From assembly GCF_000014005.1 (NCBI RefSeq), contig NC_008009.1:4960001-5024000 (forward strand): a stretch of 64,000 nucleotides of DNA, read 5' to 3'. The notes beneath the pieces are model-generated. The model was given only the letters and a program-made list of their open reading frames with translations. It was not told where the DNA came from and ran no database searches. Positions 7,677 through 63,126 of the stretch are shown here, in pieces (position 1 is the stretch's first letter; each line of letters begins with the position of its first letter). The position numbers and the translations under genes are program-made. Source of the stretch: Candidatus Koribacter versatilis Ellin345 (lineage in GTDB: Bacteria > Acidobacteriota > Terriglobia > Terriglobales > Acidobacteriaceae).

Positions 7677-7813
7677 ACAGATGCCTCCGAAACGTAGGGC
7701 AAAACGAGCCAGTGTAAATGAACGGCAGACGAAACTGGAACCAGATCAGCTCATGGGTTAAGAGATTCAGGCCATTTCGGAGCTGCTGAACCAGAGCTAT
7801 ACTTCATCCCGTT

Positions 7814-7996
7814 ATGCGTTACCGATTTGCTTTTGCGGCTGACGGTTCTCCGGAAGACCTGAACTCATCCGACACTGCGGATGACCAGCGCGCCCGGCCA
7901 CGCACCGGGACGATCGAAAAGATCGCGGACATCGCCTACGACACCCTCCGCAAACACGAGGTCGCGTTGCCTGCTGAGAAGACCGACGAGAAGTAG
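7814..7996 (+). CDS. possible small protein of 60 residues
   Basis: A short charged, soluble frame (MRYRFAFAADGSPEDL ... KHEVALPAEKTDEK) with ordinary codon use. No Shine-Dalgarno site is present, but TATACT at 7798-7803 would place a transcription start at about 7810, only a few bases before the ATG, as in a leaderless mRNA. The stop codon TAG coincides with the first bases of repeat copy A. No family recognised. It may be a chance frame. Confidence 0.35.
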   Translation: MRYRFAFAADGSPEDLNSSDTADDQRARPRTGTIEKIADIAYDTLRKHEVALPAEKTDEK

Positions 7997-8379
7997 TACC
8001 CCCTCCCCCCACCTGATCCTGATTCCAAAGGGTTTACGCGATGAATCCTCGCAAAATATTCCAAATAAAAGAGTTATAGGCAAAATATTCATAAGTAAGG
8101 GGTTAGGGGCGGTTATAGTTCCCGTGCGGTTGCGAGGCTTGCGCCTCGCAACCCGAGGCCACGCCGCCCATCCGAGTTTGCATCGTTTGCGCCTGCTTTC
8201 ACGACGCTATCTCGTCGTGCTGAGAATCCCGGACGCCCTCCGGGCTGGCGTCGATCGCGAACGACACAGTATTCAGAGCGACGCAGGTATTCAGGCCGAT
8301 GCATTCATCCTGAGCGACGCCTTCATCCGGCGATGCGGTTTTCAAAGAACAATTGGGTTTTCTTGGGAATGCCCCACGT
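7994..8379 (+). repeat. dispersed structured element, copy A (386 bp)
   Basis: It shares an ordered set of blocks with 53326-53692 read on the minus strand. (1) TAGTACCCCCT at the left edge. (2) Two AT-rich units, each with AAAATATTC followed by GTTATAGG or GTTAGG. (3) An 11-bp perfect hairpin at 8128-8153 (GGTTGCGAGGC, loop TTGC). (4) CGCCGCCC. (5) A hairpin at 8200-8219 (CACGACG/CGTCGTG). (6) GCCCTCCGGGC inside a larger GACGCC/GGCGTC stem near 8243. (7) TTTCAAAGA. (8) TTGGGAATGCCCCAC at the right edge, 8365-8379. No protein is encoded. It is a repeated intergenic element, either a non-autonomous mobile unit or a structured RNA. Confidence 0.8.
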
Positions 8380-8490
8380 AGACACAGTACTGGGATGGGG
8401 GCAAGGGAATCGGTGATTTCGGACACAGGTTGTTGTGCGATGGATCACGAGGAGGGTGTGATAACAACGGGTGCCGTCCGCTGAAGCTTT

Positions 8491-8535
8491 CCCACCGCTT
8501 ACGCGGTGGGCTATTACGTGGCGTCGCTTCGCGAC
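8491..8535. repeat. pair of GC-rich hairpins downstream of copy A
   Basis: CCCACCGC-TTAC-GCGGTGGG (8491-8510) and GTCGC-TTC-GCGAC (8523-8535). They lie just past the stop codon of the minus-strand TPR/aspartic protease gene and may help end its transcript, though no clear U tract follows. The rest of 8380-8549 holds nothing recognisable. Confidence 0.55.
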
Positions 8536-8549
8536 TTTGAGATGCGGAT

Positions 8550-10097
8550 TCAGCGTTTATTCGAGTTGTGGTAGTCGAAGTTGACGAGGCCGTCGCGGTA
8601 GTCGATGGTCAGGCGGAACTGGCTTAGGAGTGGGAAGCCCAGGATGCCGCCGAGGGCGATGCCTTCGCCTTCGCTGAGTTTATCCATGCTGATGGCGACC
8701 ATGCGGAAGTTGTCCTGGGTGAAGCGGCCGAACTGGATCTGAACGTTACTGGCGACGTAAACGTCGCGAACGTTACCGGAGAGGCCGCGCACAGATAAGC
8801 CGGGGGCGGGCTGAAGTTTGGATTTGGAGACGTTATTTGGATCGATCTGGGTGTCGAAGGCGCCGGTATCCAGGAAGAAGAGGCCGGCGGGTTGCTGGTC
8901 GACACTGGTGGAGACGAGGATGTGCGCGCCCAGGTGCATGACCCGGTCGAACGACTGCATTGCCGGCGCGACATAACGATCGGCGGCGCCGGCTTCGTCG
9001 CGAAGGTTGGCGGGAATCTCGGGCAGAGGCGCGAGACTTAGCTCGGAGTTCTTGATGTCGAGGGTGATGAGGAAGTGCTCGAAGACATCGATGCCCATCA
9101 ATCCGTCGGAGCCTTCGGGGAACCTTGCGTCGAGGACCGTGACAGGAACGTTCTCAAATTCGATGGGGCCGATCTTTACGTCGTGAGCCCAGCCGAGATA
9201 TCCGTTAGCGGGCTTTTCGTCGCCGATACCTTTCGTGGCGATGTCGTAAACCTGTTTGATCTCGGCTTTGGCGGCGTCGCTCTTGCGCAGCACGATGCCG
9301 CTGGCGCCGGTGTCGAGGAGAAGGGAGACCGTCTTCTTGTCGTTGAAGCGGACATGTATGGCGACGGCGCCTTCGCGCGGCGGAGTGGTGAAACGGCCGT
9401 CGCCAAGATGCGCGGCAGAAACGATGTGGTCAAGCCTCAGCTTGGCGGTTTCCCTGGTGCTGACGAGCTTCCACGCGGTTTTGTTGCCAAGGACGATAAG
9501 CCATGCGAGCCGCGATTGCAGGATGTTGAGACGGTCCGGATCGAGGTGGCCGTGGTGGTCCACGAGGTATTCGACGGCCTTGCGGCGCTCCGGTCGCGGC
9601 AAGCGACTCGCCCAGGATTCGTAGATTTCAGGATCTTTGGGATCGAGTTCGTGGGCTTTGAAGATGTCGCGGCGGGCGCTGCGGTAGTTCGAGGTGATCT
9701 GCGCGATCTGCGAGAGGCCGTGCCAGGCGCGGGCGCAATTGTCGTCGAGTTTTGCGGAACGCCGGTAGGCGATTTCGGCATCTTCGATCCGTCCATCGCG
9801 GAAGAAGACATCGCCGGAAGCGGCCTGGACAGCTGCGGAGTCGGGGGCGGCGCGGAGAGCGGTATTCGCGGCATCGCGGGCCGCTTGGAGATTCTTTTCG
9901 TTCAGGAGCGTGCGGACGAGTCCACCGTGGGCGTCGCCGGAAGTAGGATTCGCGGTGAGAGCCTGGCGGTAAAGACGTTCGGCGGTGGGGTAGTCGTAGG
10001 TGCGCCAGGCATCGAGAGCTTGTTGTTCGAGTGTTGGCGATTGGGCGAAGAGCGGGAGTGCGCAGAGCAGGACGAGTAGCAGGGGCACCCGGGGCAT
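8550..10097 (-). CDS. TPR protein with two retropepsin-like aspartic protease lobes, secreted
   Basis: 515 residues from ATG at 10097, chosen because a signal peptide (MPRVPLLLVLLCALPLFAQ) begins there; the open frame upstream is low-quality. Residues 22-160 hold about four TPR-like helical pairs (for example AERLYRQALTANPTSGDAHGG and AEIAYRRSAKLDDNCARAW). The rest contains two aspartic-protease signatures, D262-T-G in LLLDTGASGIVL and D410-T-G in FFLDTGAFDTQID. Each is followed by hydrophobic-Gly stretches that could form the second half of a lobe. Most bacterial retropepsin-like proteins have one DTG per chain and dimerise; two suggest a pepsin-like single-chain pair. It is probably a periplasmic protease whose TPR part binds partners. 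Confidence 0.88.
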   Translation of the reverse strand: MPRVPLLLVLLCALPLFAQSPTLEQQALDAWRTYDYPTAERLYRQALTANPTSGDAHGGLVRTLLNEKNLQAARDAANTALRAAPDSAAVQAASGDVFFRDGRIEDAEIAYRRSAKLDDNCARAWHGLSQIAQITSNYRSARRDIFKAHELDPKDPEIYESWASRLPRPERRKAVEYLVDHHGHLDPDRLNILQSRLAWLIVLGNKTAWKLVSTRETAKLRLDHIVSAAHLGDGRFTTPPREGAVAIHVRFNDKKTVSLLLDTGASGIVLRKSDAAKAEIKQVYDIATKGIGDEKPANGYLGWAHDVKIGPIEFENVPVTVLDARFPEGSDGLMGIDVFEHFLITLDIKNSELSLAPLPEIPANLRDEAGAADRYVAPAMQSFDRVMHLGAHILVSTSVDQQPAGLFFLDTGAFDTQIDPNNVSKSKLQPAPGLSVRGLSGNVRDVYVASNVQIQFGRFTQDNFRMVAISMDKLSEGEGIALGGILGFPLLSQFRLTIDYRDGLVNFDYHNSNKR

Positions 10098-10149
10098 ATG
10101 GGCCGGATGGTAGCAGAATCGGTGGACATATGAGGGGTTGGTGATGATA

Positions 10150-10200
10150 GGGGTGCTTCGACTGCGCGCGCTTCGCGTGCTCCGCTCAGCATGACAGGGG
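10150..10200 (-). repeat. dispersed CTGTCATxCTGAGC repeat, minus-strand copy
   Basis: On the minus strand this begins CTGTCATGCTGAGCGGAGC and ends CAGTCGAAGCACCCC. The same frame words occur on the plus strand at 51853-51908 (CTGTCATCCTGAGCGAAG ... CAGTCGAAGGACCC). The interior differs but can form a hairpin in each. It lies between the terminator of the cyclic-nucleotide-binding gene and the start of the next gene. This word is a familiar intergenic repeat in acidobacterial genomes (from memory). Confidence 0.6.
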
Positions 10201-10205
10201 GGCAG

Positions 10206-10231
10206 AAAAAAGCCCGCCGGGGTAGGCGGGC
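10206..10231 (-). terminator. rho-independent terminator of the cyclic-nucleotide-binding gene
   Basis: On the minus strand, GCCCGCC and GGCGGGC pair across a short loop and are followed by six T. It lies 39 bases after the stop codon of the gene ending at 10270. Confidence 0.9.
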
Positions 10232-10269
10232 GAATGGTAGGAAATGGGAATTGGGGGATGAAAGTTTTA

Positions 10270-10740
10270 TTAGGCCAGGCGCGCGGCTTGCTGTTGCTTT
10301 CTTGAAGCGCGGCGCTTCGGCTGAACCGGTTGTATCGGCATCTGCGAGACCTCGTTGCCGAGGACACTGAGAACGATCATGCAGAGGTCGGTGCGCTGAC
10401 GAAGGAACTCGAGGACCTTCTCACGTTCCACGAAGATGAGGCGCGAGTCTTCATCGATCTCGGCGGTCAGTTGATAAATGCCGCGCAAGAAAGTGCCCGG
10501 CAGACCCAGCAGGCTTCCAGGGCCAGAGCTGCGAGCGAGAACGGTATTGCCATTCTCGGTGCTCATGGTCAGGGAGGCGTGTCCCTGGAGCACGATGTAG
10601 ACCCCTTTGGCCGGATCCCCTTCATGAAAGAGGATGGTGCCCCGCACGGCGGTTATCTCGTGGCCTAGGGGCTTGAGCTCGTCCACGAGCTCGGGTGGGG
10701 AAACAAAGGCTTGGTTGGGGATATGAATCGGTTGCGTCAC
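10270..10740 (-). CDS. cyclic-nucleotide-binding domain protein without output domain
   Basis: 156 residues; start codon GTG at 10740 with GGAGG about 10 nt upstream. Residues 20-125 form a cNMP-binding beta-roll of the Crp/Fnr type (ITAVRGTILFHEGDPAKGVYIVLQG, then SLLGLPGTFLRGIYQLTAEI). The helix after the roll is present, but the protein stops at a basic tail (KRRASRKQQQ) with no helix-turn-helix. The phosphate-binding RxxS/T arginine motif is not evident, so the ligand may not be cAMP. It sits 110 bases downstream of a histidine kinase on the same strand and could be a sensory partner of it (inference). Confidence 0.85.
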   Translation of the reverse strand: MTQPIHIPNQAFVSPPELVDELKPLGHEITAVRGTILFHEGDPAKGVYIVLQGHASLTMSTENGNTVLARSSGPGSLLGLPGTFLRGIYQLTAEIDEDSRLIFVEREKVLEFLRQRTDLCMIVLSVLGNEVSQMPIQPVQPKRRASRKQQQAARLA

Positions 10741-50929: not shown

Positions 50930-51864
50930 TCCTCGTCTTCTGCGGCACCCCGCGCTTCGCCGTTCCCTCCCTCGAACACATCGTTCGCGCCGGACACGAC
51001 GTGCGCCTCGTCGTCACGCAACCCGACCGTCCTAAGGGCCGCGGCATGGGCCTTGCGTTCTCGCCCGTCAAAGACGCCGCCCTCGCGCTCAATCTTCCCG
51101 TCACTCAACCTGAGAAGATCAAGAACAACGAAGAATTTCGCGCGCAACTTTCAGCGATCGCCCCCGACGCCATCATCGTCGTCGGCTACGGACGCATCAT
51201 CCCGCAATGGATGATCGACCTACCGCCGCTGGGCAACATCAACGTCCACGCCTCGCTGCTGCCGAAGTATCGCGGCGCCGCTCCGATCCAATGGGCCATC
51301 GCCATGGGCGAGGCGGTCACCGGCGTCACCACCATGAAAATCGACGCTGGCCTCGACACCGGCGACATGCTCCTTCAGGCCGAAATGCCCATCGCGCCGG
51401 AAGACACTTCGGAATCGCTGGCGCCACGTCTCGCGGAACTCGGCGCCGAATTGCTTGTCGAAACCCTTGCCCGCCTCGAAGGCGGCGTGATCGCCGCGGT
51501 CCCGCAGAACCACGCCGAACACACCCTCGCGCCGATCCTGAAAAAAGAAGACGGCCAAATCGACTTCCACCGCTCCGCGCAAGAAATCCTCAACCGTCTC
51601 CGCGGCTTCACCCCCTGGCCCGGCGCCTTCACCCAATTCCGCGGCAAAGGTTTCTTCATCCATCAAGCCCGCGCCGTCGCGGCGACCCTCGAACCCGGCG
51701 AACTCCGCATCGAGGGCGAGAACCTTCTTGTCGGCGCCGGCCACAACACTGCGCTCGAACTCCTCGAAATCCAACTAGAAGGCAAGAAACGCATGCCCGC
51801 CCGCGACTTCATAAATGGCTACCGCCCAAATTCCGCCGACAAACTCGGCCGCCTGTCATCCTGA
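50926..51864 (+). CDS. fmt: methionyl-tRNA formyltransferase
   Basis: 312 residues from ATG at 50926. The catalytic N106, H108 and D144 fall at exactly the E. coli numbering (GNINVHASLLPKYRGAAPIQ, GLDTGDML). The C-terminal OB-like domain follows (GFTPWPGAFTQFRG, KKRMPARDFINGYRP). It formylates Met on initiator tRNA using 10-formyl-tetrahydrofolate. The last residues (LSS) and the stop codon are written by the start of a dispersed CTGTCATCCTGAGC repeat. def, often the upstream neighbour, is absent. Confidence 0.98.
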   Translation: MILVFCGTPRFAVPSLEHIVRAGHDVRLVVTQPDRPKGRGMGLAFSPVKDAALALNLPVTQPEKIKNNEEFRAQLSAIAPDAIIVVGYGRIIPQWMIDLPPLGNINVHASLLPKYRGAAPIQWAIAMGEAVTGVTTMKIDAGLDTGDMLLQAEMPIAPEDTSESLAPRLAELGAELLVETLARLEGGVIAAVPQNHAEHTLAPILKKEDGQIDFHRSAQEILNRLRGFTPWPGAFTQFRGKGFFIHQARAVAATLEPGELRIEGENLLVGAGHNTALELLEIQLEGKKRMPARDFINGYRPNSADKLGRLSS

Positions 51865-51908
51865 GCGAAGAATCCGGATAACAATCCGGATTCGCAGTCG
51901 AAGGACCC
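51853..51908 (+). repeat. dispersed CTGTCATCCTGAGC repeat with a 10-bp hairpin, overlapping the fmt stop codon
   Basis: CTGTCATCCTGAGCGAAG, then GAATCCGGAT-AACA-ATCCGGATTC (51870-51893, perfect), then GCAGTCGAAGGACCC. The fmt stop codon (51862-51864) lies inside the conserved word. A second, inverted copy is at 10150-10200. Confidence 0.75.
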
Positions 51909-51959: not shown

Positions 51960-53258
51960 GTGTCCAAGAATCCCTCCCGCGCCACCGCCTTCGATATCCT
52001 TCTCCGCGTCGAGCGCGACCAGGCCTTTGCCTCGGAACTGCTCCACTCCGATCGTCTCAACGATCTCTCCGCACCAGATCGCGGCCTTGCCACCGAACTC
52101 GTCATGGGCACGTTGCGCTGGCAATCCACACTCGACGCACTCGTCGCCACGCAATCCTCACAGCCACTCCGCAAACTCGACATCGAGGTCCTGATCGCAC
52201 TTCGTCTCGCGGCCTACCAACTACAGTTTCTCGACCGCATCCCCGCCAACGCCGCCGTAAACGAGAGCGTGGAATTGGTGAAGCGCGCGCGCAAACGCTC
52301 CGCCGTGCCGTTCGCCAACGCAGTTCTGCGCAAAATCTCCAAGCTTCCACGCGAAATCCATGGTGATCTCGCCCATCCTGCGTGGCTAGTGGCGCGCTGG
52401 CGCGACAATTACGGCGGGGATGCCGCAGAATCCATCTCCAAATACGGTCAAACTACGCCGGAAACCGCGCTACGGCTCCCATTCGACGCCGAAAAACGCG
52501 CCAAAGTTGAGGCAGAACTCCAGGAAAACGGCGTAGAACTCGCTCCCGGAAGGCTCCTGAACGCCGCACGGCGCCTCGTCAGCGGCGACCTCAGCGGCAC
52601 CGCGGCCTTCCAACGCGGCGACGTCTGGATCCAGGATGAAGCCTCCCAACTCGTCGCCCTTCTCACGGGCCACGGCGATCGCATTCTCGACTGCTGCGCC
52701 GCTCCCGGCGGAAAAACTTCCGTCTTGGCCGAGCGCAATCCTTCGTCGAAAATTGTCGCCCTAGAACTCCACGAACAACGTGCACGCCTACTTCGAGAAC
52801 GCGTTCGCGCGTCAAACGTGGATGTGCAAACCGCCGATGCCACGAATTTCCGCGCCGAAACCGCGTTTGACTGCGTCCTAGCCGACGTCCCTTGCTCCGG
52901 TACCGGCACCCTCGCTCGCAATCCCGAAATCAAGTGGCGCCTAAAGCCCGAGGACCTCGCCGATCTCCAGCAACGCCAGATCGCCATCCTCCGCGCCGCC
53001 CTAAGCCAACTCGCGCCCGGCGGCCGCCTCGTCTACTCGACATGCTCTCTCGAACCAGAAGAAGGTGAAGCCGTAGTCGAAGCCTCGCTGACCGACGAGT
53101 TCGAACTCCAACCCGCAGCGCCCGAACTTGAGCAATTCGCACCCGCATTCGCCATCCCCGACCCGCAGACTCTCGTCCGCGGCCCCTACCTTCGCACCAT
53201 CCCTGGCATTCACCCCTGCGAAGGATTCTTCGCCGCCGTAATCACACGTCGCCAGTGA
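51960..53258 (+). CDS. rsmB: 16S rRNA (cytosine-967 C5) methyltransferase RsmB
   Basis: 432 residues; start codon GTG at 51960. N-terminal NusB-like RNA-binding domain (RATAFDILLRVERDQAFASELL ... ELVKRARKRSAVPFANAVLR), then an SAM methyltransferase: ILDCCAAPGGKTSVLAE (SAM loop), C312 in DVPCSGTGTLARNPEIKW and C362 in YSTCSLEPEEGE, the two cysteines of RNA m5C enzymes. It follows fmt by 96 bases, the same order as in many bacteria. Confidence 0.97.
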   Translation: MSKNPSRATAFDILLRVERDQAFASELLHSDRLNDLSAPDRGLATELVMGTLRWQSTLDALVATQSSQPLRKLDIEVLIALRLAAYQLQFLDRIPANAAVNESVELVKRARKRSAVPFANAVLRKISKLPREIHGDLAHPAWLVARWRDNYGGDAAESISKYGQTTPETALRLPFDAEKRAKVEAELQENGVELAPGRLLNAARRLVSGDLSGTAAFQRGDVWIQDEASQLVALLTGHGDRILDCCAAPGGKTSVLAERNPSSKIVALELHEQRARLLRERVRASNVDVQTADATNFRAETAFDCVLADVPCSGTGTLARNPEIKWRLKPEDLADLQQRQIAILRAALSQLAPGGRLVYSTCSLEPEEGEAVVEASLTDEFELQPAAPELEQFAPAFAIPDPQTLVRGPYLRTIPGIHPCEGFFAAVITRRQ

Positions 53259-53325
53259 TGGCCCTCACGTTCAAACGTGCCGCCGCTCACATTTTTCTTC
53301 CCGAAGTACGCGTTACTCTGCGCAT

Positions 53326-53692
53326 GTGGGGCATTCCCAACAGAACATCTGATCTTTGAAATCACAGCGATAATCGCTCGCGCCCGAATCGCCGCCTATG
53401 CCGGTTCGTATCGGCAAAACACACTGCCTTGCACCTGCATTGCGCCAAGCCCGAAGGGCGGCTGGGTTTTTAAGTGCGACGCGGCAGCGTCGTGGAAGGC
53501 ACGCGAAAGAAATGCAAGCCCGCTTCAGCGGGCGGCGCGGCCCCTGTTCGCGAGGCGGTTAAGCCTCGCGAACGCGACCTAACCCTTTATTTTTGAATAT
53601 TTTACCTATAACTTATTTAGATTGAATATTTTGCGGCGATTTGGTCGCTAAAATCTTGAAAACAAAGGTTCGCATCCGGGTAGGGGGTACTA
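53326..53692 (-). repeat. dispersed structured element, copy B (367 bp)
   Basis: On the minus strand it repeats the block order of copy A (7994-8379): TAGTACCCCCT; two AAAATATTC units ending GTTATAGG and GTTAGG; an 11-bp perfect hairpin at 53546-53573 (GTTCGCGAGGC); CGCCGCCC followed by GCCCGCT-GA-AGCGGGC; CGACGC-GCGTCG (53477-53492); GCCCTTCGGGC; TTTCAAAGA; and TTGGGAATGCCCCAC at the far edge. The hairpin stems differ from copy A at matched positions, so pairing is conserved. The first three bases are the TAG stop codon of the PASTA gene. The remaining gap 53259-53325 shows nothing. Confidence 0.8.
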
Positions 53693-63049: not shown

Positions 63050-63126
63050 TGGTGGCGGCGCGTGGACTCGAACCACGGACCTACGGATTATGAGACCGTC
63101 GCTCTAACCAGCTGAGCTACGCCGCC
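63050..63126 (-). tRNA. tRNA-Met (anticodon CAT), CCA encoded
   Basis: 77 bases. Acceptor GGCGGCG/CGCCGCC, D-arm GCTC-AGCTGGTTA-GAGC, anticodon loop CTCATAA, variable TAGGTC, T-arm GTGG-TTCGAGT-CCAC and encoded CCA. The anticodon stem has a U-U mismatch at its loop-closing pair. CAT could also mean initiator or Ile2 (CAU modified); the G1-C72 pair excludes a classical initiator, and the sequence fits elongator Met. Confidence 0.93.

Follow-up and report, generated by a model that had tools for sequence, protein, structure and literature searches.

Two intergenic stretches of the window (the whole 64,000 nucleotides of DNA analysed, G000:C1:4960001-5024000) carry copies of one and the same element, copy A on the plus strand in the orientation in which it was first read (7996..8448) and copy B on the minus strand (53255..53690). 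The earlier note had placed both copies at these sites, with common blocks in the same order, and had made the pairing depend on an alignment better than that of shuffled DNA. The local alignment of A with B indeed lies far above chance, with a score of 134.5 compared with a mean of 19.5 (standard deviation 2.5, maximum 28) for shuffled B, and 138 other stretches of the window score at most 32. Furthermore, four of the five occurrences of AAAATATTC in the window lie inside A and B (expectation 0.18). What is conserved is a pair of end modules whose order and strand do not vary: module (i), on the left, comprises the GTACCCCCTCCCC end and three AT-rich units of about 29 nt, and module (ii), on the right, measures about 115 nt and terminates in GRTCAC. 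According to the junction consensus of the copies, conservation begins at GTACC and stops at TCAC. The right-hand limit first proposed, at TTGGGAATGCCCCAC, was wrong, since the element extends about 70 nt further, to GGATCAC.

Copy A runs from its GTACCCCC end to its GGATCAC end, and the models described below match it at 7996-8108 (R2, genome 4967996-4968108) and 8339-8454 (R1, genome 4968339-4968454). Its first base is the G of the TAG stop codon (7994..7996, plus strand) of an upstream ORF of about 60 amino acids. The terminal module starts with a C-run, which is the G-tract GGGGGGAGGGGGTAC when read on the minus strand (7996..8010), and continues with the three units of about 29 nt on the plus strand (8016..8108, cores at about 8016-8040, 8053-8078 and 8082-8107), followed by the variable middle with a hairpin-chain cargo, to which no strand is assigned (8109..8338). 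Beyond it, all on the minus strand, lie a Nus boxA-like GTTCTTTGAAA, appearing as TTTCAAAGAAC on the plus strand (8340..8350), a putative -10 box TACTGT of the form TAnnnT (8384..8389), both key bases of which are invariant in A2, and tandem GTGA-N6-TCAC-like palindromes (8412..8448) that would suit a regulator of the CRP/FNR type. Just past the copy, at 8491-8536 on the plus strand, an Acido-Lenti-1 RNA is found (RF01687, 59.2 bits), a sequence with many further occurrences in G001, G007 and G024.

Copy B has its GTACCCCC at 53690 and its other end, ...CCATCAC, at 53255, with model matches at 53578-53690 (R2) and 53249-53362 (R1) and a boxA-like GATCTTTGAAA on the plus strand (53351..53361). 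It abuts the TAG stop codon of a PASTA-type gene (53690..53692, minus strand) and overlaps at its other end the TGA of the opposite gene, thereby occupying exactly the interval between two convergent stop codons. Each copy thus starts right on the TAG that ends its upstream gene.

The supposition that two copies in 64 kb imply many per genome, which few further copies would have undone, was borne out by a genome-wide model search of the single contig of 5,650,368 bp (5.65 Mb), in which about 65 copies of the same layout were found. The pattern AAAATATTC-N20-AAAATATTC occurs at 12 places on both strands (reversed control 0), all of which start with a GTACCCCC-like end, and the pattern of the other end, TCAAAGANC...GGNNNTGCCCCA, occurs at 20 (control 0). 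Models were built from 20 copies of the left-hand (5') module (R2) and from 18 copies of the right-hand (3') module (R1), and at E<=1 they match 67 and 61 times, respectively, in this genome. In 59 cases the matches pair, always left then right module on one strand, with a gap of 4-474 nt (median 87). Elements here are 230-570 bp long and lie on both genome strands; they are short, dispersed in many copies and without an ORF, and encode no protein, as had been supposed.

A layout of AT-rich units together with a chain of hairpins had been described for the two copies. The units are conserved, but the hairpin chain is variable cargo of the gap, found in A, B and one other copy only (L163, L164 and L138, respectively), and these hairpins are therefore passengers. 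Acidobacterial hairpins of the CAGATYC...ATGACA type occupy the gap of 12 copies and other repeats occupy that of others, and 32 of 58 paired copies contain none of the repeat cargos searched for; the stretch between the modules can accommodate other repeats. The third unit is inverted in some lineages (G022 and part of the genome studied here), and a run of five or more G is present in 71 of 72 copies from other genera and in 54 of 65 copies of this genome.

Module (i), searched with R2, was detected in 12 genomes among 41 near relatives. Across 399 genomes of the class, 62 carry it at E<=1e-4; 57 of these belong to the family studied here, the few matches in other families are each single, and 14 sampled genomes of the neighbouring family gave none. 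The right module R1 is confined to the genus itself. A tree of 175 left modules requires 16 label changes for 12 genera, compared with at least 67 for shuffled labels; copies therefore cluster by genus, each genus having amplified its own stock.

A comparison of orthologous intergenic sites, as proposed in the earlier note, was made for both copies. In the congener G001, site A retains the small ORF with its TAG but lacks the element (L229), 2.57 kb of the genome studied here corresponding to 310 bp; it is also absent in G022, which belongs to another genus. The stretch shortened to 310 bp in the congener and lacking in G022 (window 7723-10298) holds, besides copy A, a minus-strand gene that by eye resembles a pepsin-like aspartic protease. 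At site B, the G022 orthologue has two stop codons 1 nt apart and no element, and the congener carries a family member of opposite orientation, against the other gene. An IS1595-like transposase gene (by eye) lies inside or beside this B-orthologous copy (L227, G001:C220:26400-29187). Three of 40 compared congener copies share a gap with copies of the present genome, and these three differ in subfamily. We read this pattern as high turnover in which copies were probably inserted again and again at favoured gene ends; copies lost and replaced independently could also account for it.

The proposal of a non-autonomous mobile element thus gains support from about 65 copies on both strands, their clustering by genus, empty or oppositely filled orthologous sites and the few sites common with the congener. 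Filled and empty orthologous sites, a feature by which MITEs are recognized, exist for both A and B. No target-site duplication was detected in 35 clear-ended copies, where no offset or length stands clearly above chance, nor is one visible at the empty site of B. Inverted similarity of the ends is weak and partly forced by anchoring (6.46 of 14 matches, compared with 4.54 after shuffling, range 3.86-5.26), and no autonomous partner, in the form of a cargo-bearing copy, was found among the paired matches. With no ORF, no duplication, weak end similarity and no such partner, we therefore call the element a non-autonomous dispersed element, BOX-like in its behaviour, rather than a proven MITE. 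Neither 72,556 plasmids nor 50,697 phages contain a match to copy A, and a plasmid or phage origin was rejected. When viral and genome contigs were searched for a degenerate form of the units, the matches were one contig that by its length belongs to G024, one related metagenome-assembled genome and chance matches. A CRISPR-like array and integron attC, considered by unit layout only, were set aside.

The right module contains the invariant TTTCAAAGA(A/G)C, the reverse complement of the rrn-type Nus boxA. Read on the minus strand, module (ii) is built like a promoter, with the tandem GTGA-N6-TCAC sites, the -10 box and, in most copies, this boxA; G(C/T)TCTTTGA occurs on the minus strand of 41 of 130 elements and on the plus strand of none of the 130, compared with 0.013 per kb as background in the flanks. 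A boxA-like sequence recurs in G256, G007 and G015, partly within the second unit, and is absent from most other genera. Upstream of boxA on the minus strand lies the TAnnnT box with both key bases invariant, preceded by a pair of GTGA-N6-TCAC-like palindromes with a spacing of about 22 bp, of which the nearer is centred about 30 bp upstream of the -10 box and about 42 bp upstream of the start as placed by that box. Palindromes and -10 box would together be arranged as in a class II CRP-type promoter.

At the corresponding place, TTGACA-N16-18-TATAAT-like promoters are found in three other genera, G256, G024 and G008, where the minus-strand promoter score exceeds 95% of shuffles in seven of seven, three of four and three of four copies, respectively; in G008, the opposite strand scores high as well. 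In g33, G022, G007, G345 and the genus studied here, sigma-70 scores in most copies are no higher than those of shuffles, so that promoters of these genera are proposed from conservation only. In this genus, g33, G201 and G345, a -10-like box and upstream motifs are what forms the conserved columns, the upstream motifs of the latter three being TGTCAAGCCCC and TTGGCAT. Several g33 copies contain a terminator-like hairpin between the -10 box and the units. It would truncate the transcript, so a full-length RNA may there require antitermination or may not be made.

A and B are members of a large, modular family of non-autonomous dispersed elements in one acidobacterial family. One end consists of the G-tract (read as the C-run and GTACC) and three tandem or partly inverted units of about 29 nt, and the other, in copies of the genome studied here, of a promoter-like module read inward. 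The analysis shows that this family exists, how it is built, where it occurs among taxa and that its sites turn over, and also that promoter-like and boxA-like sequences are conserved in it. Its transcription, its movement by an enzyme and whatever function the RNA may have are inferred, and we consider this reading as a whole probable. Spread would most likely proceed via a transposase or recombinase acting in trans, with copies surviving mainly in gaps beside gene 3' ends, often flush with the stop codon. Each copy would then most likely be a small transcription unit on the strand opposite to that first read, so that an RNA gene is likely on the minus strand of copy A, and the corresponding RNA of copy B would be encoded on the plus strand of the window. 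An activator-type promoter would drive an RNA of about 150-450 nt, which in the Koribacter type would carry a 5' stem-loop and usually the Nus boxA, then cross the U-rich units and terminate at or near the G-tract.

The same sequences could belong to a passive or parasitic repeat of the BOX/RUP kind without a meaningful transcript, its promoter-like and boxA-like sequences being pieces of host regulatory DNA that each genus acquired a single time and that multiplied along with it. Copies within a genus are not independent, so promoter conservation may reflect shared ancestry; moreover, a strong -35 is lacking in many genera, a conserved RNA structure is absent and divergent gaps are avoided, as with parasites. 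Against this, the promoters that share position and direction in several genera are unrelated in sequence, and boxA is restricted to one strand. We regard a passive repeat as a reasonable but rather unlikely account.

The minus-strand transcription unit could also be taken further, to a self-spreading, mobile small-RNA gene whose sole conserved cargo is its own activator-controlled, antiterminated non-coding RNA. Its tandem units would bind protein, and its terminal G-tract would form an RNA:DNA hybrid during transcription. Either the RNA or this hybrid would itself take part in spreading, or in halting RNA polymerase where genes end, and genera would have exchanged promoters with the layout kept. 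We put this forward as speculation of low probability.

Neighbouring genes were called with our own codon-usage gene caller, trained on the fetched loci, and gene starts are therefore approximate. The flanking genes are oriented -,- in 23 cases and +,+ in 21, and they converge in 16 and diverge in 5, which amounts to a preference for convergent gaps, as in BOX elements. A stop codon lies within 8 nt of the element in about 16 of 39 left-hand genes that end there, and of 68 left-hand neighbours, 29 have their start and not their end at the element. Orientation relative to genes is nearly even, and the idea of a fixed 3'-UTR element, tied as a rule to its upstream gene, was rejected on this ground. 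These contacts with stop codons, the convergent gaps and the G-tract retained in nearly all copies would be accommodated by a regulatory device acting in place at 3' ends or between genes, in which the C-rich, G-poor start of the plus strand after stop codons serves as a Rho-type terminator and a minus-strand transcript or G-tract R-loop insulates convergent genes; since so many left-hand neighbours start at the element and orthologous genes in relatives manage without it, we judge such a device improbable.

The consensus fold of the units has an energy of 0.00 kcal/mol on either strand (RNAalifold, 72 copies from many genera), and the Koribacter leader has none; moderate folds appear only within single small genus sets. 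A structured RNA on the plus strand was accordingly rejected, and the suggestion of a family of structured RNAs, in the sense of a conserved fold, finds no support. Since there is no consensus fold and the third unit is inverted in some lineages, the units point to protein-binding motifs rather than a fold. In Rfam 15 the element is unmatched at the gathering threshold or at E<=1; Acido-1 (RF01686), considered separately, does not match, and no published description was found in a search that covered few subscription journals, so that for Rfam 15 and the papers searched the family indeed has no name. A structured regulatory RNA family at fixed loci, to which the conserved promoter-like module, the boxA and the hairpins in the cargo of A and B might be attributed, is very improbable given the missing fold on both strands, loci that differ between species and the absence of a match in Rfam.

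Among known systems, BOX elements of Streptococcus pneumoniae, which are modular, 67-637 bp long and present in about 120 copies per genome, are over-represented between convergent genes, often supply or overlap a stop codon, carry TIRs, TSDs and a predicted RNA fold and are regarded as parasitic non-autonomous mobile elements, repeats inserting into one another (PMC3049150). The present element shares with them conserved end modules around a variable middle, a similar size range, the preference for convergent gaps and the contact with stop codons, but has no TSD, at most a weak TIR and no conserved fold, and it differs further in its promoter-like end, tandem AT-rich units, G-tract and range over many genera. 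BOX is thus an analogue by layout and behaviour, with no sequence relation expected, and its 'boxA' module is unrelated to the Nus boxA described here. The nearest promoter-bearing analogue is provided by the Correia repeat enclosed elements of Neisseria, with about 100 or more intergenic copies of 69-151 bp, which are predicted to be mobile, have 26-bp inverted repeats, bear promoters and lie near ncRNAs (PMC5039591). In contrast, the present element measures 230-570 bp, lacks 26-bp inverted repeats and has internal repeat units. Like REP sequences and the RAYT-dependent GTAG- and CGTC-tagged palindromes, it is intergenic and of high copy number, and the hairpin cargo of some copies is REP-like; the family as such, however, is no short palindrome, and what it conserves is not hairpins. 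Acido-Lenti-1 RNA is likewise a dispersed acidobacterial intergenic motif, but it is a separate 46-nt hairpin that element copies do not match. In the mitochondrial CSB II / LSP transcripts, a promoter is followed about 150 nt later by a GGGGGAGGGGG tract, which is an analogy of layout only, without homology.

Most known small bacterial dispersed repeats are limited to a species or genus and are united by hairpins or inverted repeats. The family described here is ordinary in kind, as a small dispersed repeat, and new as a family; it is unusual in its range and in its layout of promoter, boxA and G-tract. It spans many genera of a major soil family with a conserved core that has neither hairpins nor inverted repeats, and the inward promoter-like module and the G-tract are maintained while the rest of the element drifts. 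If each copy does make an RNA, a genome like the present one would contain dozens of unannotated, related small-RNA genes that jump to sites beside gene ends.

Several further observations concern the surroundings of the element. Three 3'-only copies consist of the promoter-like module without the AT-rich units (G000:C1 4698431, 316105 and 4257952; L159, L160 and L161), with no tRNAs or rRNAs beside them; one of them reads into a protein operon after boxA (GAGTTCTTTGACAACTGAATA), and another reads into a different RNA-like body ending in a strong terminator hairpin and a T-run. A tRNA gene lies at 63053-63126 of the window on the minus strand (Rfam). Finally, stretches of about 55 bp at window positions ~10137-10206 and ~51852-51908 match dozens of places in the congener with 81-93% identity, and constitute another dispersed repeat with at least two copies in the window.
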